A DNA stretch of 64,000 nucleotides. Origin: Linum tenue (Eukaryota > Streptophyta > Magnoliopsida > Malpighiales > Linaceae). How positions within the stretch are numbered: the stretch's first letter is position 1; every line of letters begins with the position of its first letter. The position numbers were made by a program, and so were the translations under genes. Shown here piece after piece: positions 4,461-63,837 of the stretch. The notes under the pieces were generated by a model. It was not told the DNA's origin and did not search any database. It saw only the letters and a program-made list of their open reading frames with translations. Location: the NCBI GenBank assembly GCA_946122785.1, contig CAMGYJ010000008.1, positions 16,331,475 to 16,395,474 of the forward strand, in the 5' to 3' direction.

Positions 4461-4462
4461 AG

Positions 4463-4476
4463 TGGTATTCAGAGCC
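4463..4476 (+). other. primer-binding site, tRNA-iMet type
   Basis: TGGTATTCAGAGCC starts 2 nt after the LTR. It is the complement of the initiator tRNA-Met 3' end plus CCA (TGGTATCAGAGCC) with one extra T. The matching tRNA gene is present in this window at 31731-31802. Confidence 0.85.
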
Positions 4477-4491
4477 TTTCTTCCAGCATCA

Positions 4492-7400: not shown

Positions 7401-8898
7401 TGCTCTTTCTCGCAGGTTTGATGGCGATGAGGAAGAGGAGATTTGCTCTGCCTTGTCCACAGTCATTCCCGAATGGATGGTGGAAGTTGAGCAGACATAT
7501 GACGGAGATCAATGGGTTACAAAGAAGATTGCTGAAGCCATTTTAACACCGTCGGGGCCGTCTTTGTGGTCTTATGCTCAGGGGGTTTTACGATACAAGG
7601 GTTCTATTGTTGTCGGTGCGACTGGGTTTATGCGTGAAAAGTTGCTGAAGTTGTTCCATTCCTCGGCTGTCGGGGGGCATTCGGGCGTTCAGGGCACTTA
7701 TCAGAGGCTTAAATCTCATTTCTATTGGGTTGGAATGAAGGCAGCAGTTCAGGCATGGGTTAAGGCTTGTGATGTCTGCAGTCGTTGCAAAGCCGAGGCG
7801 GTGGCTTCCCCGGGGCTTCTTCAGCCTCTTCCCATTCCTCAGCAGGCTTGGCAAGATATCAGTCTCGATTTTGTGGAAGGGCTGCCACATTCTCAGGGGA
7901 AGGAGGTCCTGTTCGTGGTCGTGGATCGCTTCACCAAATACGCACACTTCTTCGCCATTTCACATCCTTACACTGCTGAATCGGTCGCCCAGGTCTTCTT
8001 TGATAGTGTGTTTCGGCTCCATGGCATGCCAAAGACGATCGTTTCGGATCGTGATTCCACCTTCACCAGTACATTCTGGACTGAGTTCTTCCGGTTGCAG
8101 CACGTCGATCTTCATTATTCGACCGCGTACCACCCGCAAACTGACGGCCAGACAGAGAGGGTGAACAGATGTTTGGAGGATTTTCTTCGCTGTATGACTT
8201 TTCATCGACCGCAGGATTGGGCTGCTTGGATTACTCTGGCCGAGTGGTGTTATAACACTCATTTTCAGGTCAGCATCCGTCTCACGCCATTCGAAGCATT
8301 GTATGGGTTCCCTCCGTCTTTCTTTGGTATGTCGGGCATGGAGTCCTCGCCGGTTGGGGCTTTCGAGGATCGCTTTGCTCGTCAACAGCAGCTAGTCACT
8401 TTTCTGCGTCACAACTTGTCGGTGGCCCAGAACAGGCAGAAACAATATGCTGACAAGCGGCGATCGGACCGTTCTTTTCAGGTGGGAGAGCATGTGTATC
8501 TCCGCCTCCAGCCTTTTAGGCAGGGGTCGGTGGTTGGCAGGCAGGGTTGCAAGCTGGGACCTCGGTTTTTCGGGCCTTACCAGGTGTTGTCTCGAGTGGG
8601 GGCTGTGGCCTACACATTGCGGCTGCCAGATGACGCCAGGATTCATCCGGTTTTCCACGTGTCGCAGTTGAAGCGCTGCTGCTCACCCACCATTCCTACT
8701 GTGTCTGCTCTTCCCGGGGTTGATGAACAAGGGACGTTGAAGCTACAGCCGGAAGAGGTTCTTGCTCGCCGTTTTGTGCAGCAGGGAGACCGCGCCGTGA
8801 CGCAGATTCTGGTTCATTGGACTCATCAGTCTCCTGCCGACGCCACTTGGGAGGATTATCATTCATTCAGGTTTCAGTTCCCTTCCTTTCCAGCTTGA
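4492..8898 (+). CDS. Gag-Pol polyprotein with chromodomain
   Basis: A 1468-residue single-frame polyprotein from the first ATG after the primer-binding site; an open stretch extends 10 codons further upstream without an ATG. Domains in order, by approximate residue: Ty3-type Gag (95-220), a zinc knuckle of unusual spacing (CFKCGDKYFYGHVC, near 297), aspartic protease (DTGSS, near 377), reverse transcriptase (583-780, active site FDDIL near 717), RNase H (near 862), integrase with an N-terminal zinc finger (1055-1096) and a DDE triad (SLDFVEG near 1124, SDRDSTF near 1185, TDGQTERVN near 1220), a GPY/F module near 1355 and a C-terminal chromodomain (1421-1460). In chromoviruses the chromodomain is thought to steer integration towards marked chromatin. 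No stop or frameshift is visible and every catalytic residue is present, so the element could be autonomous. Confidence 0.95.
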   Translation: MAPDLTHNTRLSVLEEQMSSVDAQMTSIIASIAALQDAQIRHSQSFEKIDASLQSLLHRSSRSISPQRSGESSDRGGGRSHQRRSSFVDHCPRIDLPFFNGVDPHSWLRKCAKYFRIHSIPDAEKVELVSMYMEGRANVWYEGWACNRQYLLWDVFVGDLLHRFGDKDQLNIVGAFNKLRQEGSVTAYQEQFEDLRSRMLRLNPGLTESYFIMSFISGLEDEIQPRVQMLLPPTLSVAFHQARLEEMSIAARKKKIRPPGKWLPSSSESEPKKSMAEPSSTPSIPPARSHNPRNQGLCFKCGDKYFYGHVCASKKQIQVLQEDESLVDSEDEIVDLVRSADCPEEVEVSMQALGSGSVGRALQIPARIGRQEVVVLIDTGSSHTFLSETRASELGCKLDSAPPMRVKVANGSALLSNSVCRDFQWRMQGTEFAFDVRTLDLRAHDLVLGLDWLETVSPIQLDLKQRQMSFEWKGKPLTLQGLVAEAQCKLLTGKSFHRLLKKKVAQFTGHLFSLSPAVSSPSSSTPPPFLQPLLTQFSDVFSTPTSLPPPRQFDHAIPIDPMSKPINIRPYRIPHHQKAVGDKMVGEMLISQFIQPSQSPYAAPVVLIGKKDGTWRFCVDYRLLNSITIKNKFPIPIIDDLLDELNGAKFFSKLDLRAGYHQIRMKPEDRHKTAFRTHQGHYEFLVMPFGLTNAPATFQALMNHVFAPYLRKFILVFFDDILVYSPTTDLHQEHLHCTLLLLRQHQLYAKLSKCSFGQPQVEYLGHVIGATGVSTEPSKISAMVNWPTPTTVKALRGFLGLTGYYRKFVRHYGIISRPLTELLKKNSFKWSAAAHEAFLALKAAMSSAPVLALPDFSLPFTLETDACGSGVGVVLSQQGRPIAYFSKSFGVKNQGRSTYEKEYLAVLMAVDQWRHYLEGRPFTILTDHESLKFLFQQKIHTAIQKKGLVKLLGLDFQIKYRRGKFNGAADALSRRFDGDEEEEICSALSTVIPEWMVEVEQTYDGDQWVTKKIAEAILTPSGPSLWSYAQGVLRYKGSIVVGATGFMREKLLKLFHSSAVGGHSGVQGTYQRLKSHFYWVGMKAAVQAWVKACDVCSRCKAEAVASPGLLQPLPIPQQAWQDISLDFVEGLPHSQGKEVLFVVVDRFTKYAHFFAISHPYTAESVAQVFFDSVFRLHGMPKTIVSDRDSTFTSTFWTEFFRLQHVDLHYSTAYHPQTDGQTERVNRCLEDFLRCMTFHRPQDWAAWITLAEWCYNTHFQVSIRLTPFEALYGFPPSFFGMSGMESSPVGAFEDRFARQQQLVTFLRHNLSVAQNRQKQYADKRRSDRSFQVGEHVYLRLQPFRQGSVVGRQGCKLGPRFFGPYQVLSRVGAVAYTLRLPDDARIHPVFHVSQLKRCCSPTIPTVSALPGVDEQGTLKLQPEEVLARRFVQQGDRAVTQILVHWTHQSPADATWEDYHSFRFQFPSFPA

Positions 8899-20178: not shown

Positions 20179-23100
20179 TTACCACAAACCGGGCGCCCCT
20201 TCTGGAACCCTACCATCATCTTCCATCACATTGGCCTCCACAACCCCATACCTTCGCAAATTCTGGGCATTCCACGTTCTCTTCACCTTCTTTCCCGACA
20301 AATGCTCCAACTTAAATGTGCCAGGCCCCACTACCTCTTGCACACGATACGGTCCCTTCCACTTTGGTGCCAACTTTCCATCGGTAGCTTTCGGTCGAAA
20401 GTCACGCTTCAACACTAAACTCCCAACCACAATGCCGTGTGGGCGCATCTTCTTGTTGTAGTACCGAGCCACTTGTGATTTCATGGCCTCCAGGCGCAGA
20501 GCAGCGCTCTCGCGGCGTTCGTCCAGGAGATCCAACTCGTTGATTCGCTCCTGCGCCTCCATCGACTCGTCCCTATGCGCCATCCGAAAAGTCGGGATAC
20601 GCACCTCCACGGGCAACACCGCCTCGCTCCCATACGTAAGCGCAAAGGGCGTATCACCTGTTGCAACTTTGAAAGTGGTTCTATGCGCCCATAAGACGCT
20701 TGGGAGTTCTTCCACCCAGTTTCCCTTGGCCTCGGTGAGCCTGGTATGTAGTCCATGTAAAATGCTTTTGTTAGCCGCCTCAGCTTGCCCATTTGCTTGT
20801 GGGTAAGCCACGGAGGAGAACCTTAAGACCACCCCATTTTCGTCACAAAAGTCGATGAACTTCTTGCAATCGAACTGCTTGCCGTGGTCGGTGATGATCG
20901 ACTCTGGCAGTCCAAACCTTGTGAAAATGTTCTTCCTTGTAAACTTCCGCACCTGCACTTCCGTGATGGATGCCAATGGTTCCGCCTCAATCCACTTCGT
21001 AAAGTAATCGATAGCCACAATTAAGTATTTGAACTGCCCGGGCGCCTTTGGGAAGGGTCCTAGTAGGTCCATCCCCCATTGAGCAAATGGCCAGGCGCTT
21101 ACGTTTCCCTGCATGGGCGCCCCTGGCACATGTATGTCGTTGGCATGGATTTGACATTGATGGCATCCGGCCACATGCTTCCCAGCGTCAGCTCTCATTG
21201 TCGGCCAATAATATCCCTGCCTTAACAACACCTTCTCCAGGCTCCGAGCCCCTGCGTGCATGCCACACGTTCCTTGGTGGACTTCCGCAATGGCCTCTTG
21301 TCCTTCAGCTTCTGTGAGGCACCGAAGATAGGTGCCGGAGTGAGACCTCTTATATAGCACTCCCTCCATGATGACACATCGCGCTGCCTTCCTTCTCAAG
21401 CGCCAAGCCTCTTTCGGGTCCTCCGGGACCACCCCTTGCTTTAGGAACAACATAATGGGCGCCATCCACCCATCCGATGCCTCTCCGAGGAAATTCGCCA
21501 TCACCCTTTCCTCTCGTGGGGCCTCTTTGGTAACTATCACCTTTCTTTCCTCTCCAAAGTCCAGCGCCGTGGCCAACTTCGATAGGGCGTCTGCATGGGC
21601 ATTCTCTTCTCTTGGGATATGTGTGAAGGTCACCTCCCGAAACCACGCACACTTTTCTTTGACGGCACGGACGTACACGCTTAGCGCCTCCTCCTTGACC
21701 TCATATACATCGTTCAACTGATTGACCACCAGCGCTGAGTCGGTTTGGACATTAACCTTCTGGGCGCCTAGCTCCCTTGCCATGTGAAGCCCTGCTAACA
21801 CAGCTTCATACTCCGCCGCATTGTTCGTCTTAAGTGTTGCGAATCGTAGGGCAACTTCATGCATGGCGCCCAGGGGGCTAATGAGCACGATACCAGCTCC
21901 TGCACCGGATCTACTTGCGGCTCCATCTACCTGAACTTGCCAACACTCTTCCACACCACTCCCCATATCAACTACTCCTTCAGCCACAAAATCAGCCAAC
22001 ACTTGAGCCTTTATGGCTGGTCGGGGCGCATAGCTGACGTCGAATTCGCTCAGCTGAACAGCCCACTTAACCAGACGCCCAGACACATCCATGGACCCCA
22101 AAACCGTTCGGAGAGGTAAGTTTGTGAGCACGATGATGCTATGAGCCTGGAAGTAGGGCCTGAGTTTGTTTGCCGCCATTACCACCGCCAGCGCCGCTTT
22201 CTCAATGGGCGCATACCGCGTTTCATGCACCGCCATGGTACGACTTACATAGTACACCGGTCGTTCCTCATTCGTCGAAGGATCTTTAGACACCAACACC
22301 GCACTCACAGCAATTCGGGAGACCGCAATGTACAAATATAAAGTCTCTTTAGGCCTGGGCGCCGTCATCACCGTAGGCGCGACCAGCAACTTCTTCAGAT
22401 CTCCGAACGCCTCATCACACTCCTCCGTCCACTTAAATTTGCTAGCCTTCTTCAATGTTCGGAAGAAAGGGGCGCCCCTATCCGAGGACCTCGGAATGAA
22501 GCGCCCAAGCGCTGCCAACCTTCCCGTCAATCCCTGCACCTCCTTCGGTGTTCGGGGAGGCGCCAACCTCATAATTGCTTCAACTTGCTTGGGATTGGCC
22601 TCGATTCCTCTCTTCGTGATCATGAATCCCAAAAACTTGCCAGCCTCCGCAAGGAACACACACTTCTGTGGGTTTAGACGTAGCTTATACGAGCGCATAG
22701 TCTCAAATGTCTCACGCAAGTCCATGATGTGGTCCTGGCGCCTCTTACTCTTCACAATCAAATCGTCGACGTATGCCTCCACATTCCTTCCCAACTGCCT
22801 CCTAAAGATTTGATTCACCATACGCTGATACGTGGCACCCGCATTCTTCAACCCAAATGCCATCACCTTATAGCAGAAGTTACCAAAGGGCGTCATGAAG
22901 GCGGTCTTCGCTCTGTCCTCCTCCACCATGGGAATCTGATGATACCCCGAAAACATATCAAGGAAGCTGAGCGCCTCGTGGTAAGCCGTGGCGTCCACTA
23001 ATATATCAATGCGAGGCATGGGGTAGGCGTCTGTTGGGCACGCCCGATTAAGGTTTGTGAAGTCCACACACATCCTCCAATCTCCCGACGGCTTTGGGAC

Positions 23101-23346
23101 GAACACTACATTCGATAGCCATGTGATGTATCTGGCTTCTTCAACGAACCCAGCCTCGAGCAACTTATCGACTTCCTTCCTTAGAGCTTCTTCCTTCTCT
23201 TGGGTCAAGTTCCTTCGCTTTTGTTGGACGGGCTTCTTTCCCTCCTCGACGGCCAATCGATGCGCCGCCACATTTGGTGACACTCCCGGCATGTCCTGGG
23301 GGCTCCAAGCGAATAGCTCCCCAAATTCTCGCAACAATTCGATCAA
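20179..23346 (-). CDS. Pol: RT, RNase H, archaeal-type RNase H, integrase
   Basis: An open frame of 1055 residues. Reverse transcriptase occupies about residues 30-250 with the active site YVDD near 192. A gypsy-type RNase H follows (335-460), then a second, archaeal-type RNase H starting near 474 (QVQVDGAAS and TNNAAEYEAVLAG motifs), then integrase with a zinc finger and a DDE triad (MDLLGPF near 759, ITDHGKQFDC near 818, GQAEAANK near 855). The frame starts with TTG and overlaps the end of gag by 4 nt in the -1 frame, with no ATG nearby, so expression probably needs frameshifting or reinitiation. All catalytic residues are present, unlike the second Tat copy at 49101. Confidence 0.95.
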   Translation of the reverse strand: MIELLREFGELFAWSPQDMPGVSPNVAAHRLAVEEGKKPVQQKRRNLTQEKEEALRKEVDKLLEAGFVEEARYITWLSNVVFVPKPSGDWRMCVDFTNLNRACPTDAYPMPRIDILVDATAYHEALSFLDMFSGYHQIPMVEEDRAKTAFMTPFGNFCYKVMAFGLKNAGATYQRMVNQIFRRQLGRNVEAYVDDLIVKSKRRQDHIMDLRETFETMRSYKLRLNPQKCVFLAEAGKFLGFMITKRGIEANPKQVEAIMRLAPPRTPKEVQGLTGRLAALGRFIPRSSDRGAPFFRTLKKASKFKWTEECDEAFGDLKKLLVAPTVMTAPRPKETLYLYIAVSRIAVSAVLVSKDPSTNEERPVYYVSRTMAVHETRYAPIEKAALAVVMAANKLRPYFQAHSIIVLTNLPLRTVLGSMDVSGRLVKWAVQLSEFDVSYAPRPAIKAQVLADFVAEGVVDMGSGVEECWQVQVDGAASRSGAGAGIVLISPLGAMHEVALRFATLKTNNAAEYEAVLAGLHMARELGAQKVNVQTDSALVVNQLNDVYEVKEEALSVYVRAVKEKCAWFREVTFTHIPREENAHADALSKLATALDFGEERKVIVTKEAPREERVMANFLGEASDGWMAPIMLFLKQGVVPEDPKEAWRLRRKAARCVIMEGVLYKRSHSGTYLRCLTEAEGQEAIAEVHQGTCGMHAGARSLEKVLLRQGYYWPTMRADAGKHVAGCHQCQIHANDIHVPGAPMQGNVSAWPFAQWGMDLLGPFPKAPGQFKYLIVAIDYFTKWIEAEPLASITEVQVRKFTRKNIFTRFGLPESIITDHGKQFDCKKFIDFCDENGVVLRFSSVAYPQANGQAEAANKSILHGLHTRLTEAKGNWVEELPSVLWAHRTTFKVATGDTPFALTYGSEAVLPVEVRIPTFRMAHRDESMEAQERINELDLLDERRESAALRLEAMKSQVARYYNKKMRPHGIVVGSLVLKRDFRPKATDGKLAPKWKGPYRVQEVVGPGTFKLEHLSGKKVKRTWNAQNLRRYGVVEANVMEDDGRVPEGAPGLW

Positions 23347-25649
23347 GGGCGCCTCATGTGTTCAGGAGCCTGTGCTGACACTCGTACCTGCCTGTCCAGG
23401 CGCCCTACTTCGATCGGTACCATGAACTCATCATCCATAGGCTCTGCTCTAGGCGCGTCCTCCGATCGAACGTCTATGTTGTTTACCCGGTGTCTTCGTG
23501 CGCTCTTCCTTTTTCCTTCCTCTTCTCGAGCATAGCGGGGGGCGCATTCTCCTCGTGAAATTCCTATGCCTTGTGGGGCAACGAACTTCAATGTTTGGTG
23601 GCAAGTCGAAGCTACCCCATTGAATAACGCCAACAGTGGTCTTCCCAGTATGACATTGTACGGCGAGGGGCAATCCACTATCCCAAACTCCACGGCATGT
23701 GTCACTCGGTGTACTTCGTCGCCCAATGTTACCGGAAGGCGCACACGCCCGATCACATGGGCAGGCGCTCCCGAAAACCCTATCAGCACCGACTCGGAGG
23801 GGCTCACCAACTCCGGCGCCAGCTGCATGCGCTCGAACGTGCTTTTGAACAAAACATCCATCGAACTTCCCGTATCCACCAACATCCTCTTGACCTTACA
23901 CCCTGCAATGATTCCCTGGATCTCCAAAGCTTCCTCCGAAGGCACCTGACATGCTTCTTCCGCCTCCTGATTAAAGCATATTTGCACCGCCGCCTTCGCC
24001 TCCACAGATGCGGCCCGGAGGCGCCTAGACCGGTCCAACTTGTCCCGCAAATCGACGGTTCCGGTTATGGATTCCACCGTGAGCCTAACCCGGTTGGGTT
24101 CTCCTTCCTGATTCAACTCGAATGGAGGTGGGGGTATTTCAAGTAGAGGAGGGTGGGCCTCCAGCGCTGGGAGGTTACCAGGCGCCTGTTGTACGACGGG
24201 AGGAGTGGGCGCCTTAGGTCCAGCCACCACAGCAGGCGCTGGCCTCGTCTCTCTTGTGACATACGCGCGGTGCGTCCTCTCTTCCGTCTTTCTTATGAAG
24301 TCGTTGAGCATTCCTCGATCAGCTAACGTCTGCAACTCCGATTTCAGTTGGTAGCAATCGGCCGTGTGATGTCCCTTATCCCGGTGAAAGTCACAATATC
24401 GATCAAGGTTCCGCTCGTTTGGTTGTCCCCGCATAGGTCCCGGCCAGCGCACATGGTATCCTCTGTCCTTCACGTATTGCAGAATGTTTTTCAGAGAGTC
24501 GTTGTATTCCGTGAAATTTCCCGCACTCCTGGGTGGTGGGCGCTGACCATCCATCCTCCTTGGTGGAGCGTTGTTCATAATGAATGGCCTAGGCGCCTGG
24601 CGCATCTCCACTTCTTCTCTACCAACACGCCTTTTCTCTGCCCTCCTCGCGGCCAACGTTTCCTCCAAGGCAATAACCTTCTGAACCCTTCGATCCAGAT
24701 CTTCAGTTGACACTACCGCCCTCTTAGACAACACACGACACAACTCCTCACTATTTGTGCACTCCTCCAGACACACTCCCAGGACTGGCGGTTGCACATC
24801 TTTTACGGCCATGGCGACCGAAATCCAGCGGTCATAGAATTCTCTAAGCGCCTCCCCCTCTCTCTGCTTGATTTTAAACAAAGCGCCTATAGTCAACGTC
24901 CGCCTCTTACGGCTGGCAAATTTGGACAAGAATAGCTCTGCAAATTGCTCAAAGCACTCTATGCGCCCCTCCTCCAACTGATGATACCAATCCAAAACTA
25001 CCCCTGCGAACGTCGAAGGGAACACCTTACACAACGTGGCATCCGTGCTATTGTACAATTGCATCTTCGTGAAATAGCTATTCAGATGATCTTCTGGGTC
25101 AGTGACTCCATCATAGCTGGTCAGCGGTGGGAGTGTAGTTCCTGCTGGCTCCATTAACACACTTTGCGCCAAGGGTTGTCTGATCCCGAAGCGCCTGGCC
25201 TGACGTTTGGGCGTCCATGGGTTCTGTTCTTCCGGCACTGGGATGGTCCACTCGCCTGGCGCCCTCCACGCGCCCGGGCGCCTGGGTGGTGTTACCTCAG
25301 GATTAATACCCTCATAGCTCGGGCGCCCATACTCGCTAACCTCCGAATCATCCATGAGCCTGTCCCTCTTCCTCACTGGGGGGCTGTACTCCCTTGTATC
25401 AACGCTCCTTCCTCCTTCCAATTCCCTCCGAAGCATTGCTATCGCTCGATCTTGGTCAACAATAATCTTGAACAGCTCCCTCTTTGACACCGAATCACTC
25501 TCCATAGACGGGCGCTCGCGGCTCTCGTCCTCCACGTCCATGCTCACTATCGGGCTTGACCTCCGCTCACTCCCCTCCGGACTGGAATTCTCCGTTCTCG
25601 CATCCTCGGCGCCTACACTTCCAACATTCAAGTCCTCCATCCTTTCCAT
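23343..25649 (-). CDS. Gag with aspartic protease
   Basis: 768 residues, starting only about 33 nt inside the 5' LTR. A Ser/Glu-rich head is followed by the retrotransposon Gag domain (about 165-320), an Arg/Pro-rich stretch, a Cys/His zinc-knuckle-like motif at about 419-432 (CDFHRDKGHHTADC, typical of Tat Gag), a Pro-rich linker and an aspartic protease with DTGSS at 592-596. Protease is thus fused to Gag, and Pol lies in the next frame. Gag forms the particle and the protease processes both polyproteins. The start ATG is the first one after the LTR. Confidence 0.93.
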   Translation of the reverse strand: MERMEDLNVGSVGAEDARTENSSPEGSERRSSPIVSMDVEDESRERPSMESDSVSKRELFKIIVDQDRAIAMLRRELEGGRSVDTREYSPPVRKRDRLMDDSEVSEYGRPSYEGINPEVTPPRRPGAWRAPGEWTIPVPEEQNPWTPKRQARRFGIRQPLAQSVLMEPAGTTLPPLTSYDGVTDPEDHLNSYFTKMQLYNSTDATLCKVFPSTFAGVVLDWYHQLEEGRIECFEQFAELFLSKFASRKRRTLTIGALFKIKQREGEALREFYDRWISVAMAVKDVQPPVLGVCLEECTNSEELCRVLSKRAVVSTEDLDRRVQKVIALEETLAARRAEKRRVGREEVEMRQAPRPFIMNNAPPRRMDGQRPPPRSAGNFTEYNDSLKNILQYVKDRGYHVRWPGPMRGQPNERNLDRYCDFHRDKGHHTADCYQLKSELQTLADRGMLNDFIRKTEERTHRAYVTRETRPAPAVVAGPKAPTPPVVQQAPGNLPALEAHPPLLEIPPPPFELNQEGEPNRVRLTVESITGTVDLRDKLDRSRRLRAASVEAKAAVQICFNQEAEEACQVPSEEALEIQGIIAGCKVKRMLVDTGSSMDVLFKSTFERMQLAPELVSPSESVLIGFSGAPAHVIGRVRLPVTLGDEVHRVTHAVEFGIVDCPSPYNVILGRPLLALFNGVASTCHQTLKFVAPQGIGISRGECAPRYAREEEGKRKSARRHRVNNIDVRSEDAPRAEPMDDEFMVPIEVGRLDRQVRVSAQAPEHMRRP

Positions 25650-31730: not shown

Positions 31731-31802
31731 ATCAGAGTGGCGCAGCGGAAGCGTGGTGGGCCCATAACCCACAGGTCCCTGGATCGAAACCAGGCTCTGA
31801 TA
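31731..31802 (+). tRNA. initiator tRNA-Met (CAT)
   Basis: 72-nt cloverleaf: acceptor stem ATCAGAG/CTCTGAT with the initiator-type A1-T72 pair and discriminator A, anticodon stem GTGGG/CCCAC enclosing CCCATAA (anticodon CAT at 31763-31765), and T-stem pair CCTGG/CCAGG around ATCGAAA. CCA is not encoded, as expected in a nuclear gene. CAA-type motifs lie just upstream and a pol III terminator (TTTTTT, 31811-31816) lies 8 nt downstream. It matches the plant initiator tRNA from memory. Its 3' end is the primer sequence expected for the chromovirus at 4253. Confidence 0.97.
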
Positions 31803-31810
31803 GATAATTG

Positions 31811-31816
31811 TTTTTT
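31811..31816 (+). terminator. pol III terminator of tRNA-iMet
   Basis: A run of six T starting 9 nt after the end of the tRNA. Confidence 0.85.
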
Positions 31817-31818
31817 CG

Positions 31819-32125
31819 TTTCTGCTGTTTATTTCTTCCCAGTCTTTCAACCAACGATGCAACCAGCACCCTCTACTCCTTCAGAACTCCATCTTGCTTG
31901 CCTACTGCTGGGTTTTAACCACAATCCAAGGTAACAATGGACATGAAGCATTGGTGGAAGTGCACCATTTCTGCTGTTTATTTCGGCTCAGTCTTTTAAC
32001 CAACGATGCAACCAAGCACCCTCTATTCCTTCAGAACTCCATCTTGCTTGCCAGCTGCTGGGTTTTAACTTTTAACCACAATCCAAAGGTAACAATGGAC
32101 ATGAAGCATTGGTGGAAGTGCACCA
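31819..32125. repeat. two-copy tandem repeat, 149-bp period
   Basis: Copy 1 (31819-31967) and copy 2 (31968-about 32125) both run from TTTCTGCTGTTTATTTC to GGTGGAAGTGCACCA with a few substitutions and small indels. They directly follow the tRNA gene. No coding function is seen. Confidence 0.9.
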
Positions 32126-49100: not shown

Positions 49101-52100
49101 TTGGTCGGTTTCTCTGATGAGAGAGTCCCGGTGATAGGCATGGTGACCCTCCCGGTCGTCATTGGAGACCAAGAGCCGCGCATCTCAAAACAAGTCGAAT
49201 TCACCATAGTCGACTGCAACTCGTCCCACAATGGCATTCTGGGCCGACCATTCCTGGCAAAATTTATGGCCCTTTCATCCACGTGCCACCAGAAGCTGAA
49301 GTTTCCCACCAAAACGGGAACTGGGGAGGCGCGCGGGACGCCATGGGGAGTCCCAAAGCTTGAAAGTGAAGCCCGCCAGACCAACATAGTCGACACAAGG
49401 CCGGAAGAACCACGCCCGGAATCGATGGATTCCGATTTCGAAGTCGCACTTGACCCAACCGAGCCGACAAGGAAAATACGCATCTTGACTCACGTCTGCG
49501 GGGACGCGATTGAGCCACTGATAGCGTTGCTGAAGGAATACAAAGAGCTATTCACATGGTGCACGGAGGACATGCCGGGAGTGCAGAGGCATGTAGCCCA
49601 ACATTGCCTCGCAGTCCCGCCAAGCGCACCCCCAAGACAACAAACACGTCGTAGCTTCACTGGCGACAAGTTGAAAGCTATCGAAGAAGAGGTGGCGCGA
49701 CTGTTGGCGGCAGGGTTGATCCGCCCAGTCAAGTACCCAAAATGGTTGGCAAACGTAGTCCTGGTGAAAAAATCTTCAGGAGCATGGCGAATGTGCGTCG
49801 ACTACACAACAATCAACAAGGTGTGCCCAGGAGACCCATACCCCTTGCCTCGCATTGACCAACTCATCGACGCCACCGCCAATCACGAGACACTGTCTTT
49901 TCTTGACATGTTCTCGGGATACCACCAGATCCCAATAGCCCGCGATGACGAAGAAAAGACGGCGTTCATGACGCCATTCGGGAACTTCTGCTTCGTCGGA
50001 ATGCCATTCGGCCTCAAGAATGCCGGAGCAACGTATCAAAGGATGATTGATTCGTTGTTCACACAACAGAGGGGGCGGAGAATCGAAGCATATGTTGATG
50101 ATCTCATTGTCAAGACCAAAGCGGGCAACTCACACCTAGAGGACCTGCGTGAGACATTCGAGGCGCTCCACAAACACAGCCTCCGCCTCAACCCACTGAA
50201 GTGCGTCCTTGGAGCAGAAGCGGGAAAATTCCTGGGTTTCATGATAACCAAGCGCGACATTGAAGTGGACCCCAAGCAGATCACCGCAGTCCAGCAGCTT
50301 AGAGCGCCGAGGAGCGCTTTAGAGATACAATCCCTGAACGGAAAAATAGCGGCGTTGGGAAGGTTCATACCAAGGTCTGCAGACAAATGCGCACCTTTCT
50401 TCAAGACACTCAAAAACGGCGCACGATTTGCGTGGTCCAAGGAGTGCGAAGCGGCGTTTCAAGAGCTTAAGGCCTATCTTGTATCTCCCCCTGTACTGTC
50501 TGCTCCCAAGCTTAATGAAAAACTTTTTTTGTACCTAGCGGTGTCAACAAGAGCTGTGAGCGCAGTGCTAATATCCAGAAGGGATGGCCAAACTGAACGC
50601 CCGGTATATTACACCTTAAGAACTTTGGTCAGCGCGGAGACAAGATACTCCCCAATAGAGAAAGCCGTCTTGGCGTTGGTAAGCGCATCTCAGAAGTTGC
50701 GCCCCTATTTCCAAGCACACCAAATCATCGTCCTGACCAATCTTTCGCTGAAAAAAATCATAACCTCAATGGAAGTCTCGAGGCGCATGGTCAAATGGGC
50801 AGTCGAACTGTCAGAGTACGACATCCAATATGCACCAAGGCCAGCAATAAAGGCACAAATCCTTGCGGACTTCATCGCTGAAGGAGTCACCCTCGAGAAT
50901 ACACCAGAAGGAATGTGGGAGGTTTACGTCGATGGCGCAGCAAGCAAACATGGCGTCGGCGCGGGTGTTGTCGTGCGCACTCCAACAGGCGTCATCCACG
51001 AAATAGCAATCAGGTTCAAGGCACTGAAGACAAACAACGCGGCCGAGTACGAAGCTATCCTAGCAGGAATGACCGTCGCCAACTACCTAGGCGCTAGAAC
51101 GATCAGAATACTCTCCGACTCCTCGCTAGCAGTGAATCAGCTGAACGGCACCTTCGATGCGAAAGAGGACACTCTCGCGCATTATGTGGAGCGTGTCAAA
51201 CAGCGGGCAAGCACATTCGAGATAGTGACGTATGCGCAAATACCCATAGAGGAAAACATGCACGCAGACGCGCTATCGAAGTTAGCGACCGCCACCGACT
51301 TTGAATCCACACGTCTCGTGACGGTCCAAAAGGAAGAAGAGGAGAATCGCCAAGAGGTGGCAGTTAACACCACTCAGCTCATGACTGACGAAGACTGGAG
51401 AGCCCCGATTGTGAAGTACTTACAGGATGGCATAGTACCGGATGATCCCAAGGAGGCATGGGCTTTGAGACAGAAGGCGGCCCGCTGTACGCTCATCGGT
51501 GAAGAGTTGTACCGACGGTCATACTCGTGGGTCTATCTGAAATGCATTGGGCAAGAGGAAGCGCGCAACATGGTGCGCGACCTACACGAAGGGTTGTGCG
51601 CCATGCACGCCGGGCCACATTCCATGGAGCGCACCATCTTGCTGCACGGGTACTATTGGCCACGTGTGAAGAAGGACACGAAGAAATACGCAGACCAATG
51701 TCACAAGTGTCAGGTTAATGCGCGCCAACATCACCTCCCGTCCACTGAGCTTCAAGGGAACCTGAGTCCATGGCCTTTCGCGCAACGGGGGGTGGACCTC
51801 TTAGGACCCCTCCCAACGGCCAAAGGAAAACGCAAGTACATCATCGTGGCAGTAGACTACTTTACTAAGTGGATCGAAGCCGAAGCGCTAGCCGCGATAA
51901 CGGCGCAACAGGTCACACGCTTCTTGAAGAACAATATACTGGCGCGCTTCGGGGTCCCGAACGCACTCATCTTCTATCACGGTAAACAATTTGATTGTGC
52001 AGAGGTGATAGACTTCTGCGACCAAGTGGGAACCATTGCAAGGTTCGCATCAGTGGCTTACCCTCAAGCAAACGGCCAAGCGGAATCCGCCAACAAAGCA

Positions 52101-52630
52101 ATCTTGCACGGCTTGCACACTCGCCTGAACGAAGCCAAAGGTAATTGGGCAGACGAGCTCAACACAATGTTATGGGCACATCGAACCACGTACAAGGTGG
52201 CAACAGGCGAAACCCCATTCGCCCTCACATATGGCACTACGCGGTGATCCCCATCGAGACAACATCCCCAACCTATCGAATCACGATGTACAATGAAGAA
52301 AGCAACAATGAGGCGCGCCTGTTAGATTTGGAACTCGCACAGGAAAGACGCGAGCTATCAGCCATCAAACTAGCCGCAATGAAGGAGCAGGTAGCTAAAT
52401 ACCACAACGCGAGGTTAGTCCCACATAAGCTGATCCTCGGCGACCAAGTGTTGCGAAGAAACTTCCGCTCTGATCCCAGACAAGGAAATCTCGCCTCAAC
52501 ATGGGAGGGCCCATACCTAATCCGCGAAGTGGTAGGTGCCAACACCTTCAAGCTCAGCGAGCTGTGCGGCAACAAAATCCTAAGGACATGGAATGCGCAG
52601 AATCTCAGGAAATACAACCAGTCCACTTGA
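49101..52630 (+). pseudogene. Tat Pol, truncated and frameshifted
   Basis: The frame is open for 1048 codons from within the protease (no DTG) through reverse transcriptase (YVDD kept), gypsy RNase H, archaeal-type RNase H (YVDGAAS, TNNAAEYEAILAG) and integrase. Three defects: the N-terminal part is missing; the second Asp of the integrase triad is Tyr (TAT, 51975-51977, in IFYHGKQFDC where the intact element has ITDHGKQFDC); and one base is missing at about 52235-52240, so the frame ends at TGA 52245-52247, while the C-terminal 130 codons continue in the next frame to 52630. This pol could not support integration by itself. Confidence 0.92.
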
Positions 52631-57144: not shown

Positions 57145-57599
57145 CTTTCCATGGGGTTAATTCCATGAATATTGTTTTTTTTTTTAATTTACCAGGAATA
57201 TAGTGGTTTTAAAACTATTTACAAGAATATTGTGTTTTTAGGAAGAAAGTCGGCGACGGCGCCCGAGACTTAGAAATTCAAGTTTTAAACGCTGTTGATA
57301 GCGACGGCGCCCCAGTCCCGAGCATTGGCGCCTTCTGAAATTTCAAAAATTTTAAGAGGCGCCAAAGCCCGAGACCGAGGCGCTGTCGCTGTCAAGTTTA
57401 ATTTTTTTTTACCCCCTTCCTCCCCCCTCCCCCTCTCGCACCACACCAGACCAGACCCATCCCACCTCCCCTCTCCACTCCTCTCTCCATCCCAGCGCCA
57501 AGAACAAGCGGCGACGCCGAGAAAAAGGCAGCAGCGCCACAGTCCAAGGCGGCGGCGCGCGGCACAAGGCGAAGTCGCCACATCTCTAGCGGCGGCGCA

Positions 57600-60378
57600 A
57601 TGTCGGACGACGAGCAGGCCCCCGGCGGCGGCAGAGGAAGAGGCCGAGGCCGGCGAGGTCGGCGTGGCGGCGGTGGCGGTGATGGCGGCGGCGGCGGCGG
57701 CGGCGAACGTTACCGGAGTGAGTATTGCCGGCGGCGGCCGGCTTCTCGCCGGCGGCGACTTTTTCCGGCGACTTTTTTTTTTTTTTTTTTGTCTAACATT
57801 TTTTTTCTTCAGTTCCTAGGCTTATCGATCCTTGTTCGATGAGACCACCACCTACGACAATCGATACTGCTCCGAATGATCCGGAACTTCTTTGGGGGCA
57901 TGGTCACCATCGGATTGACGCAGTTTGGGCAAATGAGGTAAGTTTTTTAAATTAAATTATTTCTATAGTTTTTTTTATTAGCGGTATAATAGAAATAGAA
58001 TAGAATAGAATTAAATTAAATTAAGAATAGAATTAGATTAAATTAAGAATATTATATTAGAATAAGTTTAGTTTAGATATATAAAAATTAAGAATAGAAT
58101 TAGATTAAATTAAGAATATTATATTGAAGGAATTGAATTAATATAGTTTTGTGCATTAATTAATTATAGGCTGGTGATCGACCATACCACATTCGTCATA
58201 CGGGCAATTTAGTTCGATACAATCCACTGTACCTGCCGTATCTCGTCGATGCCGGCTTGTCTAGTGTTCTGCCACTAGCCCCTCTTACCGGTGATCCGGG
58301 TTTGATTACTGCGCTCGTAGAGCGTTGGAGACCCGAGACATCGACATTTCACATGCCGTTCGGTGAGGTGACGATCACTCTAGAGGACGTTGCGACACTC
58401 ACTGGATTAGCGATCAACGGTGATGCCGTCATAGTAGACATACCAGACGAGGACTGGTCGGCTATGTGTCTTCGACTGTTAGGACAGGCTCCTACTGATC
58501 TTGGTGGCGGCGTCATCCGGATTACTTGGCTCGGGGATACTTTCGATGAGCTACCGCTTTCTGCATCACCAGAGACGACAGAGCAGTATGCTAGAGCGTA
58601 TGCGCTGTCTCTGATGGGAGGTGTCTTGTTCTCCGATCGGTCTGGAGGTTCAGTTCACCTGCAGTATCTACTTTTGGTAGAGGATTGGCGCAGAGCGGGG
58701 AGGTTTGCTTGGGGAGCAGCTGTGCTATCCTACTTGTACCGTGAGATGGGTAGATCGGCGCTGCAGATGACGGCATCTTCTTCACTGGGTGGTGACTTTG
58801 GTGGATGGGCCGCCTTGCTGATGCTCTGGACGTGGGAGCGGTTTCCTCATACATCACCACTACATGCGGTGACGGGTGCGCAGATTACTCAGGACGCAGT
58901 GCCACGTGGCATTCGGTGGCTTCCGGCTCAGACCCGTCAGCATGGAGATCAGTTCTACTTGTACAAGCTGTGGTTTGACGAGTGCACGACATTCGTGGTT
59001 AGTATATAACATTTAGTTTTATAGAATAGTTTTAATTGATTTATTATAGATTTAGGAGTAATTATGTGACCAATCCTTGTGTGCAGTGGCGTCCGTACTT
59101 TCATAGAGGTCTGGACTACAGCGGTACTGTGATCCAGTCCCACACGTTTCGAGCAGTGGTTCCGCTGATCTGCTTCTCATCGCAGATGTGGCATCATCCA
59201 GATCGCGTGCTAGGACAGTTTGGAATGGTTCAGGACCGGCCTCATCCTCCACATTCCGCGGCTGAGATTAGATTTTTTCTTCGTGTGGGACAGCATGGAC
59301 CATCACGTGGCCAGCAGTTCTTACAGGCAGCCAGCGAGTCGATTGAGTTGTGGAACCGTCGACATGAGTTCGTAGCGCAGACGAGCTACAGTGACGTGGA
59401 ATTAGCTTACCACTCGGAGCATCAAGAGTGGTATAGAGATGTCACTAGACGTTCAGGCACACGGAGAGTTGCTGCACTGAACGCAGCGGTGAGTTTTTTT
59501 AGTAATTAAAATTTGTGTTTTAATTGTTTTTAGATGTGTGGAATTTCTGATATTTTCCATTTAAATTGCAGTACGACTGCATGGAGACCGTTGAGCAGGG
59601 TTTACGTGATGGGATGAGAGCAGGAGGGCTATCATATGACCAGATGGCGGAGTATGCTGACCAGTTGGCGGCAGGTGTTACAGCTATAGGTTTTAGTCAT
59701 CGCCGACATTCGGATACAGAGCCAGTACAGCGGTACCCTGATGAGCGTAGCTTAGCCAGCTGGCCAGAGCGTAGGACTCAGCCATCGGGCTGGGGCGTGC
59801 CACCGCCACAGTTCATAGAGGAGCCCAGGAGGAGGAGACAGCGACGTGAGCAGGGTGACGTACCTCGTGGAGTGAGGTACTCAGATCGTCAGCCAGTCAG
59901 ACCTACTTCGACCTTCACATTCCACCAGCCTTCTCAGCCACCGTTACGGCCAGGCGCTTCTACCGGATTTCAGGCAGGCACCAGTTCTTCTAGCCCTCAG
60001 TTTCAGGCCCAGGAGGATAGCTTTCACACACCTCAGCATGCTACGATGGGAGGAGGGCACATGGGATCAGGTAGTACAGTCCTGCCACATTTGGACGTCG
60101 ACGAGTGGGAGCGTGTCGATCTGCAGATGCAGGATCAGGACTTCCAGACATCTCATTGGGCATATGAGCAGCAGCGACGAGAGGGTCCACCGGATGAGCA
60201 GGTTCAGTCCCAGGTGGATGATATGTTCGGCACACAGGATCAGGATGATGGGGCGGAGAGAGCTGAGCAGTTGCCTCCACGAGACAGGAGGCCAGCGAGG
60301 TGTGGTACTGGCGGCCATCTAGTGGCAGAGCACGGTGGTCGTCGTGGTGGTCGGCGCGGTGGTCGTGGTGGTCGTTAG
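57600..60378 (+). CDS. plant mobile domain (PMD, MAIN-like) protein
   Basis: Five exons: 57600-57717, 57813-57937, 58170-58997, 59087-59488 and 59572-60378, with consistent phases, giving 759 residues. Exon 1 is a short Gly/Arg head (RGRGRGRRGRRGGGGG). Exon 2 has RLIDPC and AVWANE, the usual lead-in. Residues about 98-450 form the aminotransferase-like plant mobile domain (LVERWRPETSTFHMPFGEVTITL as split blocks: WRPETSTFHMPFGE, TLEDVATLTGL, YLLLVEDW, WAALLMLWTWERFP). The C-terminal exon is Gln/Arg-rich with a final RGG run (RRGGRRGGRGGR). Host PMD proteins such as MAIN and MAIL1 act in the nucleus in silencing and genome stability; transposon versions are known but their role is not. Here it may assist the transposase or counter silencing; that is inference. 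Confidence 0.88.
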
Positions 60379-60742
60379 TGTATTTATGTACTATGTTGAG
60401 ATATCTATTATTATTATGTTCTTTATGACTATGAATTATTATTATGTACTTTCGTTCTTGAGACTATTTATTATTATGTACTTATTTTTTGGACTATTTT
60501 TAATTTCATGCGGACTAATTCATGTTATTGTTGTTGTCTAAATTGAGACTTTAAATATAAAACCAACAAATTCCAAAAGCTAGTTCAGTTCATAAAAGTC
60601 CAAACAACAACTGCTTCAAACAACAACAACTCCAAAAAACAACAACTTCAAACAACAACAAGTCCAAACAACAAGTCCAAACAACAACTTCAACGAGATA
60701 AATCGAAAGAAAAACAACAACTGCTACATTCAAACAAACTTC
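60379..60742. other. shared 3' region of the convergent MULE genes
   Basis: 364 bp, AT-rich, with TTATTATGTACTT repeats on the left and CAACAA-rich repeats (about 60600-60720) on the right. It presumably holds the polyadenylation sites of both genes. Confidence 0.6.
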
Positions 60743-63426
60743 TCAGCCACGTCTATTCCCTCTACTTCCTCCTCTTCTACCACCTCTCGCACTTCGTTGG
60801 CCACCACTCCCTCTTCGGTTGCTCCCACTCCCACTTGCTTGGCCACCACAGGTTGATGCATTATGTCCCGCTTGGTTACAGTTGCTACACACTTGCTGTG
60901 ATGAACCCTCCCTTGGCCAATCCATCTCGTTGTGAATTCGTGTTGATCTTGGTCTCCCCGGCTTTCTAATCATGTCCAGATTAGGATGGAGAGTAGTGTC
61001 ATTATGCTTCTTCCAACCCTTAGGTTCACCAAGAGGAGAGAAACTTGTCCCATAACAAGCAAGCACTGTTCGAAGCTTGTAGACGTCGTTTACAAACCTA
61101 TATGGATGGGCTCCCATTCGGTTGCAAGCTGCAATGGCATGAGAGCAAGGAATTTTATTTCCTTGAAATTTCCCACAAGTGCAAAATCCCGTCCGGTTGT
61201 GGTCGTCAAAGTGCACTGTGAGTGTGTTTGACCCCGTCATGTTTAAATTGTTGGGGGGAGTCTGAACTACATAGATGCCTTGACTTCGATCAAGAGCTGT
61301 CACAGAATGCCCAACTGCCTTTTGTGACCACGGCTTCATCAGTTCTTCGCACTTGGTGGAGTACTGTGAAGGACCACTCCTAATTTCTGCTCCTGTCTCC
61401 AACCTGTACTTATCGAATTTCTCCACCAATCGCCAATAGGTATGTTGCACAAGAGAAGCTATAGGAAGTGCACGAATACCTTTGAAAACACCATTGATGC
61501 TTTCTGCCATGTTGGATGTCAGGATAGACCAACGACGCCCACCATTGAAGTTATCATGTGCTAAACTCCAACGAATCTGATGTTGGTCCACCCAGTTATC
61601 ACATGAAATATTTCTATCAGTGGCCACCTTCTTAAATTGCTCAACTTGACGATCGAACTTCTCCAAGCGTTTTTCTCCGGCTAACAAAATAATCAACCAC
61701 ACGGGTTAGATAAATTCATGACAAACTTACCTAAAAATAAATAACAAAATTAAATGAAGAAGGCTTACCGACTCGAAATAGTTGCTTATACATAATTCTG
61801 CTTTTAGTCTTCCTTTGCAAATTGCTTGCATAGTGTCGCATGCACCACCTCCACTCCCAACCTCTTCCGATGTTATTCATGGCTTCATAGAGTCCTGCAT
61901 GTCTATCTGAGATGATGCATACATCATTTCGATCAGTCAAACCCTGAACGTGACGTATGAACCATGGCCAACTATCAGTATTCTCACTCTCCACTATGGC
62001 AAATGCAATTGGAAAAATCTTCTTCCGGCCATCAAATGAGCTCGCCATGAGTAGCACTCCTTTATACTTCCCAGTAAGAAATGTCCCATCAACAACAATG
62101 ACGCCTGGACAATACTTGAATCCATCTATACAAGGTCCATAAGCCCAAAATACTCGCTGAAATATCGAATGACCTGGTTGAGTCGAAGGAACTCTTACCC
62201 AATCAATCACCGATGTTGGCATTTTTCTCTTGACCACCCGCAAGAATGTCTGCAAAAAATCATAGGATTCTTCCCAATTTCCATGCAACTTCTCCAATGC
62301 TCTTTGTTTCCCATACCAAGCCTTCTTGTAAGTAACTTGCATATTAAACTTATCTTTCAACTCGGCTTGCACAGTTAGAACACTCAGATTTGGTTGGGCA
62401 CGTACCAAATGTTTGACGGCCTCAGATATCACGTCGACATCAAGATGGCGATGATCCGTCGGTTGAGTCGTACTGCTACAAGTATGCACCAACTCGACCT
62501 TTCTCACGCTCCAATCGCCTCCCACATCTCGACATCCAAACCGCACCATCCAAGGACATTTGTCCTCCTTGTGCATCAAACATCTGATCTTCCAGATTGA
62601 AGGTGACGACTCCACCACGTTATACTGAAAGTTGCGTTGTAGTGCATAGTGCTTAATCGCCACCTGTGCAGCTTGTTTCGAGTGAAATATCTGCCCCTTG
62701 TAGAATTCTCCATCAAAACCACCAACAGTAGACCCTGGAATTACGCCATATGAATCAGCATATGATAATTCCTCGTCCTCTTCATTACCCTGCAAGTAAA
62801 AATATGGAGGATAATTAGGTAGTTCTCCTCCCTCCCCGTCGTCGTCGTCCTCCTCCTCCTCCTCGTCTTCCTCCTCCTCCTCATCTTCCTCCTCTTCGTC
62901 ATCATCGTCATCAAAGGCAGGATCGGATGGCACGCTCCATGTATCATCACCGTCATCATCGTCTTCCTCTCCATCCCGATCCTCACTGAGCTCAGCATGT
63001 ATCTCAGCACCCAAACAATAAGAATTTTGTGCCATAAAATTCCAAAGCACATTTAAGCTATCATCATCGACAATAGGCATTGCATGATGAAATAAAACAC
63101 CATTTTGCCATTCTGGAAGACAGTAGGTGAAACCTGTAATCACAACACTATCTTGTACTGTTTCGTCTCTAATCCGTATTCTCCGAATTAGATGATCACA
63201 AAGTTTCTGATAGTTCACCCTGGATGGAATAGTAATCTGGAAACTTAAACCACCAACAAAATGGACACCCAAATTGTCTTCTACTTTCTCTGATCGCCAC
63301 CGAACAGCTAGTTCAAATCTCCTAAAACCACTACATTAAAAACAAACTCTAATTACTAATTGGACAAAATCATTATGATGAATACATGGAAAAAAAAAAT
63401 TACGACTCTTACCTGTTATCAGCCAT
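60743..63426 (-). CDS. MuDR-type transposase
   Basis: Three exons: 63426-63413 (MADN plus 2 nt), 63321-61769 and 61680-60743, with consistent phases, giving 834 residues. A short N-terminal module (to about 100) is followed by a long Asp/Glu tract (about 125-170), the MULE DNA-binding domain (from about 213, Cys and His ligands in IRCLMHKEDKCPW and VELVHTC), and the MULE transposase core with the DDE residues in VVVDGTFLTGKYKG (near 416), ISDRHAGLYE (near 476) and NMAESINGVF (near 581). A SWIM zinc finger (CTCGKFQGNKIPCSH, near 689), a zinc knuckle (CSNCNQAGHNASTC, near 784) and a Gly/Arg tail close it. It cuts and joins at the TIRs and makes the 9-bp duplication. No defect is visible. Confidence 0.93.
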
Positions 63427-63837
63427 CTTCCCAGCAACCAGACAGCAACACCAGAGCTTCTCTCAGAACTTCTTTCAGTTTTTTGGTGATGAAGAACCGA
63501 AGGAAAGGTGCAGTATATATAATGGAATGGGAGGTGCTGGAGTGGGAAAAAATGGCAGCGACGAAGCCCCAGTCTGGGGCGCCGACGCTTTTTCTATCTC
63601 CAAAGCGCCAAAGCCCCAGTCCGGGGCGCCGGCGCCGAGTTTTTTTTTTTAAAAAGCATCTAGCGCCGGCGCCCCGGACTGGAGCTTCGGCGCTTTCAAC
63701 ATATCAAAAAACACAATATTCCTGTAAATAGTTTTAAAACCACTATATTCGTGGTAAATTAAAAAAAAAAAACAATATTCCTGAAAATAACCCCTTTCCA
63801 TGCATTTCTCATTTTCACATAAATAAATAAATAAAAA

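Follow-up and report, generated by a model that had tools for sequence, protein, structure and literature searches.

Maize MuDR carries two genes, mudrA and mudrB, between its terminal inverted repeats (TIRs) and is flanked by a target site duplication (TSD) of 9 bp. A similar element, with two genes between TIRs, a convergent second gene, and a 9-bp TSD, is described here from a stretch of 64,000 nt at C8:16331475-16395474 of the Linum tenue genome (hereafter, the window), but its second gene encodes a protein with a plant mobile domain (PMD), which sets it apart from mudrB by Pfam family and not by sequence comparison. Judged by its sequence, the Linum element is a complete and young Mutator-like element (MULE), which appears to be autonomous.

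PMD genes of MULEs have been described before. According to Ikeda 2017, PMD was first described with a rice MULE, and PMD-C occurs in transposase fusions of grasses and Amborella, having been captured twice, perhaps for anti-silencing; the PMD-C of eudicots is presented by Nicolau 2020 as mainly genic. In the catalogue of Dupeyron 2019 (PMC6446971), PMD is present in the majority of members in several MULE groups of angiosperms, often antisense to the transposase: the entries are 'PMD in antisense for most of them' for the MUDR group (Table 1), 'PMD in most, often antisense' for MUDRAVI2, which includes many dicot sequences, and 'PMD and/or DUF in half the members' for VANDAL. Since it is catalogued there, the PMD-antisense layout was already known, eudicots included. 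The layout and the PMD gene described in a first-pass annotation of this DNA are real, but its reading is too strong in that antisense PMD genes had been catalogued (Dupeyron 2019), and the idea of anti-silencing had been published (Ikeda 2017). As given in the same catalogue, the PMD-bearing groups (MUDR, MUDRAVI2, MDR, MULE-Monocots, and VANDAL) have in common a SWIM-bearing MULE transposase, TIRs whose length ranges from tens to hundreds of bp, a 9-bp TSD, and PMD that is often antisense; the Linum element, likened by us to these groups collectively, adds a close second copy (L034) with both genes open.

Another related system is VANDAL21/Hiun with its extra protein VANC21 (PMC5735166, PMC10398659; PDB 9lnj), the fold of which is matched by predicted PMD models. 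The motif bound by VANC21 has 9 bases and occurs as tandem repeats in noncoding segments of VANDAL21, introns among them; binding leads to the loss of methylation at the motifs and then over the whole element (PMC5735166, PMC10398659). The Linum element resembles VANDAL21 in the presence of tandem repeats in introns and upstream DNA. It differs from VANDALs in that the latter are described as often lacking TIRs and also have VANB, and in that VANC carries DUF1985/DUF287, whereas the window protein scores as PMD only. Host PMD-C proteins MAIN, MAIL1, MAIL2, and MAIL3 (PMC5418596, PMC7156037) have PF10536 in common with the Linum PMD, which, in contrast to them, belongs to a long-branched lineage of transposable element (TE) type, separated from the sampled Linum MAIL3-type proteins by the approximately unbiased (AU) test.

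Element structure and gene content

The element occupies positions 57154-63793 of the window. Both its ends are flanked by CTTTCCATG (57145-57153 and 63794-63802), with all nine positions identical, as the first-pass annotation had it. The TIRs (57154-57239 on the plus strand and 63707-63793 on the minus strand) are 93.1% identical over 87 alignment columns, and their local alignment score of 142 far exceeds the maximum of 31 among 500 dinucleotide shuffles of the 201-nt ends, which bears out the description of the TIRs as long. Close to the inner end of each TIR is a GC-rich imperfect palindrome: in the left subterminal region (57240-57599, plus strand), the presumed promoter and 5' leader of the PMD gene, the arms of 49 nt (57295-57343/57347-57395) are 80% identical, and in the right one (63427-63706, minus strand), the arms of 47 nt (63589-63635/63663-63709) are 85% identical.

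The gene models are exon joins read from the genomic sequence. The PMD gene, on the plus strand, consists of exon 1 (57600-57717, with ATG and GT donor), intron 1 (57718-57812), exon 2 (57813-57937), intron 2 (57938-58169), exon 3 (58170-58997, encoding most of the PMD domain), exon 4 (59087-59488), and exon 5 (59572-60378, with the stop codon and an RGG-rich C-terminus). Intron 2 contains an A/T-rich tandem array (58002-58118; 22-bp unit, 5.3 copies), the length of which varies among copies and which is a candidate target region in the mechanism considered below. The 759 aa product matches PF10536 with an E-value of 2.6e-67 and 227.9 bits (gathering score 34.9), PMD being its sole Pfam family at E<=0.001; the assignment of the second gene to PMD, with a frame open across five exons, is thereby upheld. 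Of the invariant and nearly invariant columns in a sample of 48 PMD proteins (24 and 56), the product retains 20 and 43, respectively. The transposase gene, on the minus strand, has three exons: exon 1 (63413-63426) with the start codon, exon 2 (61769-63330) with the MULE transposase domain, and exon 3 (60743-61680) with the SWIM finger, a CCHC-like knuckle recognized by eye, and the stop codon. Its 837 aa product matches PF10551 (E 2.1e-18), is also above the cut-off for Transposase_mut PF00872 and SWIM PF04434, and scores 22.5 bits for the MuDR DNA-binding family PF03108, just under the 25-bit cut-off. The stop codons of the two genes face each other across a spacer of 364 nt (60379-60742) with short tandem arrays (60436-60499 and 60599-60693), in keeping with the claimed MuDR-like convergent layout. 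All six introns of both genes are of GT-AG type, and both gene models are open. Both convergent genes end in RGG/GRRGG-rich tails (60334-60372 and 60743-60800), and the N-terminus of the PMD protein is likewise RG-rich.

Copies in the genome

A search of the Linum tenue genome (692,308,334 bp in 17 contigs) with the left 247 bp of the element gave at least 71 matches. Among them, 40 are left ends, the window's own included, and the family size is a lower bound, because only 40 of the 572 candidates were scored. The element is thus no single copy, and the 20 best-scoring of the 39 other left ends, which were compared with it, share its TIRs. Four of them reach full or nearly full length (L031, L034, L048, and L049, the last two with a few unmatched bases at the end), while the remaining 16 are internally deleted with ends wholly or nearly retained, which confirms the anticipated deleted derivatives. 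Exact TSDs of 8-10 bp, with small end shifts allowed, flank 13 of the 20 copies (L033-L039, L041, L042, L045-L047, and L050), eight of them with 9/9 matches at the default position. The TSDs of L038 and L039 are the same, as are those of L041 and L042, each pair being probable duplicates, and therefore the sites with the same TIRs and different TSDs, which the first-pass annotation had suggested looking for, number 11. No exact TSD of 8-10 bp was found in the seven other copies (L031, L032, L040, L043, L044, L048, and L049). The family is thus made up of full-length and internally deleted copies with TSDs of their own.

L034, which is flanked by a 9-bp TSD of its own and in which both genes are open, differs from the window element by 8 substitutions in 6,639 nt. 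At a substitution rate of 7e-9 per site and year, this divergence would correspond to less than 0.1 million years. L031 differs by 9 substitutions in 6,638 nt; its PMD gene is open, its transposase gene is out of frame, and it lacks a TSD. In L038, L039, and L040, the transposase gene is cut, but the PMD exons are stop-free over 754-756 compared codons, and their deletions (12, 12, and 6 nt, respectively; exons were compared) are all in-frame. L032 is the reverse of this case, and in some copies (L047, L048, and L049), the PMD gene is lost or contains stop codons.

Constraint and variation among copies

The ratios of nonsynonymous to synonymous substitution rates (dN/dS) indicate that the PMD frame is under constraint between copies. 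Against the window, they are 0.27 for L038, 0.29 for L036 (partial), 0.38 for L040, and 0.41 for L048, with uncorrected Fisher p values of 0.0015, 0.008, 0.027, and 0.046. The ratios of the broken copies L044-L046 are 0.66-0.79, and those of the near-identical L031, L034, and L035, resting on 3-4 changes, are 0.64-0.96. In the case of the transposase, ratios of 0.44 (L048; 8 changes, p 0.38), 0.35 (L049), and 0.33 (L037) and, for the other copies with a non-zero ratio, of 0.77-2.26 are too few to judge constraint.

Indels were compared with the window in 12 of the 20 copies. Their extent, in nt per 100, is 20.2 in PMD intron 1, 16.4 in intron 2, 9.3 in exon 1, 6.0 in the left subterminal region, and 5.9 in the spacer (three copies); PMD introns 3 and 4, as well as intron 2 of the transposase gene, are free of them in these copies, and the value of 9.5 for transposase exon 2 stems from deletion edges. 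PMD exons 2-5 differ by 0.2-1.6% between copies when pooled (8.3% in exon 3 of L045), while divergence in the same copies reaches 12% for the left subterminal region and 28% for intron 1. Tandem arrays are present in the noncoding DNA, and their lengths vary between copies. Such noncoding variation fits a fast change of target DNA, but it also fits repeat slippage and recombination between subfamilies. Short-word counts in the noncoding DNA of the element gave no convincing motif, and GGCGCC has 58 further occurrences in the window outside the element. In L041, L043, L045, L046, L048, and L050, the segments 57240-57599 and 57718-57812 are divergent and 57813-60378 is similar; these are either mosaic copies made by recombination or copies with a fast-changing control region on the PMD side.

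Relatives and phylogeny

The best of the 94 matches of the PMD protein are Linum proteins P0001-P0003 (61-70%; P0001 comprises 30 sequences), followed by a match of 36%, and the nearest named matches outside Linum are mostly MAIL3-like 'PP7 long form homolog' proteins. The best match of the transposase is P0095 of L. trigynum (80%), the next by score being at 37% among the 120 of 131 matches listed. PMD and a MULE-type domain occur in one gene model, with either domain first, in 5 of the 94 PMD matches and in 13 of the 120 listed transposase matches, P0078 being in both sets. These models come from ten genera (Linum, Senna, Apium, Cuscuta, Lolium, Vaccinium, Setaria, Dendrobium, Lupinus, and Erythranthe); they are predictions, some of which may be erroneous fusions. 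Residues 4-125 of the PMD protein P0009 resemble the N-terminus of the MULE transposase of the Linum element (18 bits).

Two trees were built, a quick one of 81 rows (the window and 80 proteins chosen from 318) and a careful one of 51 rows, from which 30 of the 81 had been dropped by judgement as long or redundant. Both sampled MAIL3-type and MULE-linked PMDs, among which the window PMD falls, MAIN, MAIL1, MAIL2-type, and PMD-A/B proteins being outside the sample. In the 51-row tree, the Linum TE-type PMDs (the window, P0001-P0003, and the MULE-fused P0078 and P0103) form one group (100/99) near PMDs of Euphorbiaceae and legumes, MULE-fused ones included (87/95), and apart from the conserved MAIL3-type proteins of Linum; the quick tree places them with MULE-linked PMDs of grasses and Erythranthe with weak support (48). 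The capture of a Linum MAIL3-type gene, that is, a single clade of such genes with the Linum TE-type PMDs, was rejected (AU p 0.0076) in a test whose sets were named with the quick tree known and whose scope does not extend to capture from MAIN/MAIL1/MAIL2-type genes. A single origin of all MULE-linked PMDs was not rejected (AU p 0.105). Labels change 3 times on the tree, against a shuffled mean of 9.5 and with none of 500 shuffles as low, where P0001 and P0003 were placed in the MULE group without genomic-neighbour evidence and 'genic' rows were labelled by judgement (conserved, unfused or phosphatase-fused). Long branches meet in the single-origin tree, and the MULE-fused PMD of Vaccinium groups with the Rhododendron PMD-phosphatase protein P0267 (98/95). 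Distances of PMDs and transposases are correlated (Spearman 0.45, p 0.0008 for 14 pairs; 0.39, p 0.019 for 11, one per genus; P0142, P0177, P0200, and P0211, with PMD pieces of less than 150 residues, were left out), which decides nothing, because co-inheritance and common host descent both produce such a correlation.

Predicted fold of PMD proteins and proposed mechanism

Predicted models of PMD relatives match the fold of the DNA-binding part of VANC21 in Foldseek searches (PDB 9lnj). The first-pass annotation had proposed that the PMD protein helps transposition or interferes with silencing, and it is the latter part that gains support from this match. By analogy, and on the strength of these models, we give an even chance to the possibility that the PMD protein acts as VANC proteins of VANDAL MULEs do, in anti-silencing. 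The domain of VANC fold would bind short motifs in the noncoding DNA of its own element, for which the subterminal regions and the tandem array of PMD intron 2 are candidates. Binding would remove silencing marks locally and then across the element, both genes would become expressed, and the family would move, with the transposase acting on TIRs, those of deleted copies too. PMD, DUF1985/VANC, and host MAIN/MAIL-type proteins would then be one fold family on both sides of the silencing conflict. A more comprehensive version is tentative, the balance being somewhat against it. It equates PMD with the VANC (DUF1985) fold, a module for sequence-specific DNA binding with which angiosperm MULEs lift their own silencing and which hosts use in MAIN/MAIL; it also holds that the Linum element is a compact two-gene TIR system whose PMD anti-silencer targets the intron 2 and subterminal repeats; and that the PMD-only derivatives L038, L039, and L040 may relieve silencing without a transposase.

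Several points weigh against an anti-silencing role. The TM-scores of the Foldseek match are middling (0.34 by query and 0.47 by target; 0.36 and 0.52 for P0017) at 10-12% identity, and the match concerns models of relatives, not the window's PMD. DUF1985 had no match at E<=10 in the window PMD, nor in P0017 and 6 of the 10 PMD relatives tested, and its scores in relatives are far under the Pfam cut-off of 35.1 bits; since the weak family WRC also recurs (11/54), recurrence alone proves nothing. A common fold demonstrates no function, and as the host's PMD proteins MAIN/MAIL1 act in favour of silencing, 'anti' does not follow from the fold by itself. The four Fisher-tested pairs were picked after the ratios were known and are not independent, their p values are uncorrected, and the 17 computable PMD ratios span 0.20 (L042, partial) to 1.12 (L037, partial). 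Indels are also common in PMD exon 1 with its Gly/Arg repeat, in the left subterminal region, and in the spacer (9.3, 6.0, and 5.9 nt per 100, respectively), and repeat slippage accounts for them, so that a target role is unnecessary. 

Single-sequence searches of the PDB gave no match for P0001 and P0095 (E<=1) and P0017 (E<=10), and the absence of other folds in the match lists is no evidence. Neither a paper on the VANC21 structure nor a publication joining DUF1985 and PMD was found in a search that did not include bioRxiv and took in few subscription papers; such a structure paper may well exist and could already note the likeness.

Alternative explanations

Anti-silencing of the VANC type ranks first among the explanations considered, followed by two that we regard as unlikely, and equally so. 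According to one, the PMD protein is a transposition helper similar to mudrB and either associates with the transposase at the ends or promotes reinsertion. The PMD gene has the same convergent position as mudrB, which is apparently required for integration (as stated in Dupeyron 2019, PMC6446971), and the predicted VANC-like DNA-binding fold would equally suit an end-binding protein. The GC-rich palindromes just inside both TIRs and the prediction of PMD and transposase as a single chain in several plants also fit a helper, whereas VANC21, the structural match, acts on silencing. Moreover, we know of no tie of PMD to integration.

According to the other, the PMD protein is a decoy that joins or displaces host MAIN/MAIL1/PP7L complexes and thereby weakens this silencing pathway without binding the element. 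Both MAIN and MAIL1 belong to the PMD proteins, have PP7L as an interaction partner, and act in the silencing of TEs, a 2021 review suggests that PMD proteins may be made by TEs as a means of counter-silencing, and the conserved columns of PMD proteins are largely kept in the window PMD (20/24 and 43/56). However, a decoy acting in trans would aid all TEs and be costly, while VANC proteins are sequence-specific, and the nearest relatives outside Linum are mostly MAIL3-like and not MAIN/MAIL1 (the latter being outside the tree sample).

It is very improbable that PMD is a captured host gene riding along without a role (transduplication). In favour of this, MULEs capture genes, and PMD is lost or has stops in L047, L048, and L049. 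Against it, the five-exon frame of PMD is open, persists in L031, L034, and L038-L040 (in the last three with in-frame deletions), has a dN/dS of 0.27-0.41 in four pairs, belongs to a Linum TE-type group separate from the sampled Linum MAIL3-type proteins (AU p 0.0076), and has counterparts in the two-domain gene models of ten genera and the PMD-MULE catalogue of 2019.

Other features of the window and significance

Elsewhere in the window, long open frames of Ty3/Gypsy gag-pol type, judged by eye, are located at 4462-8898, 20179-25649, and 49101-52247, and at 31731-32125, a tRNA-Met gene lies beside a 150-bp tandem duplication. Rfam at gathering score found one tRNA and nothing else.

The Linum element is real, young, and of a known kind, and the structural lead would give the PMD genes of such elements a function. 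What PMD genes do in MULEs and how MAIN/MAIL proteins act at the molecular level are both described as open questions in papers on PMD proteins; the fold match to a solved protein-DNA complex makes both directly testable, and the Linum family, being young and having intact copies, lends itself naturally to such tests. If the proposed reading of PMD as an anti-silencing protein is true, plants have a single protein fold at work in silencing as well as in anti-silencing.
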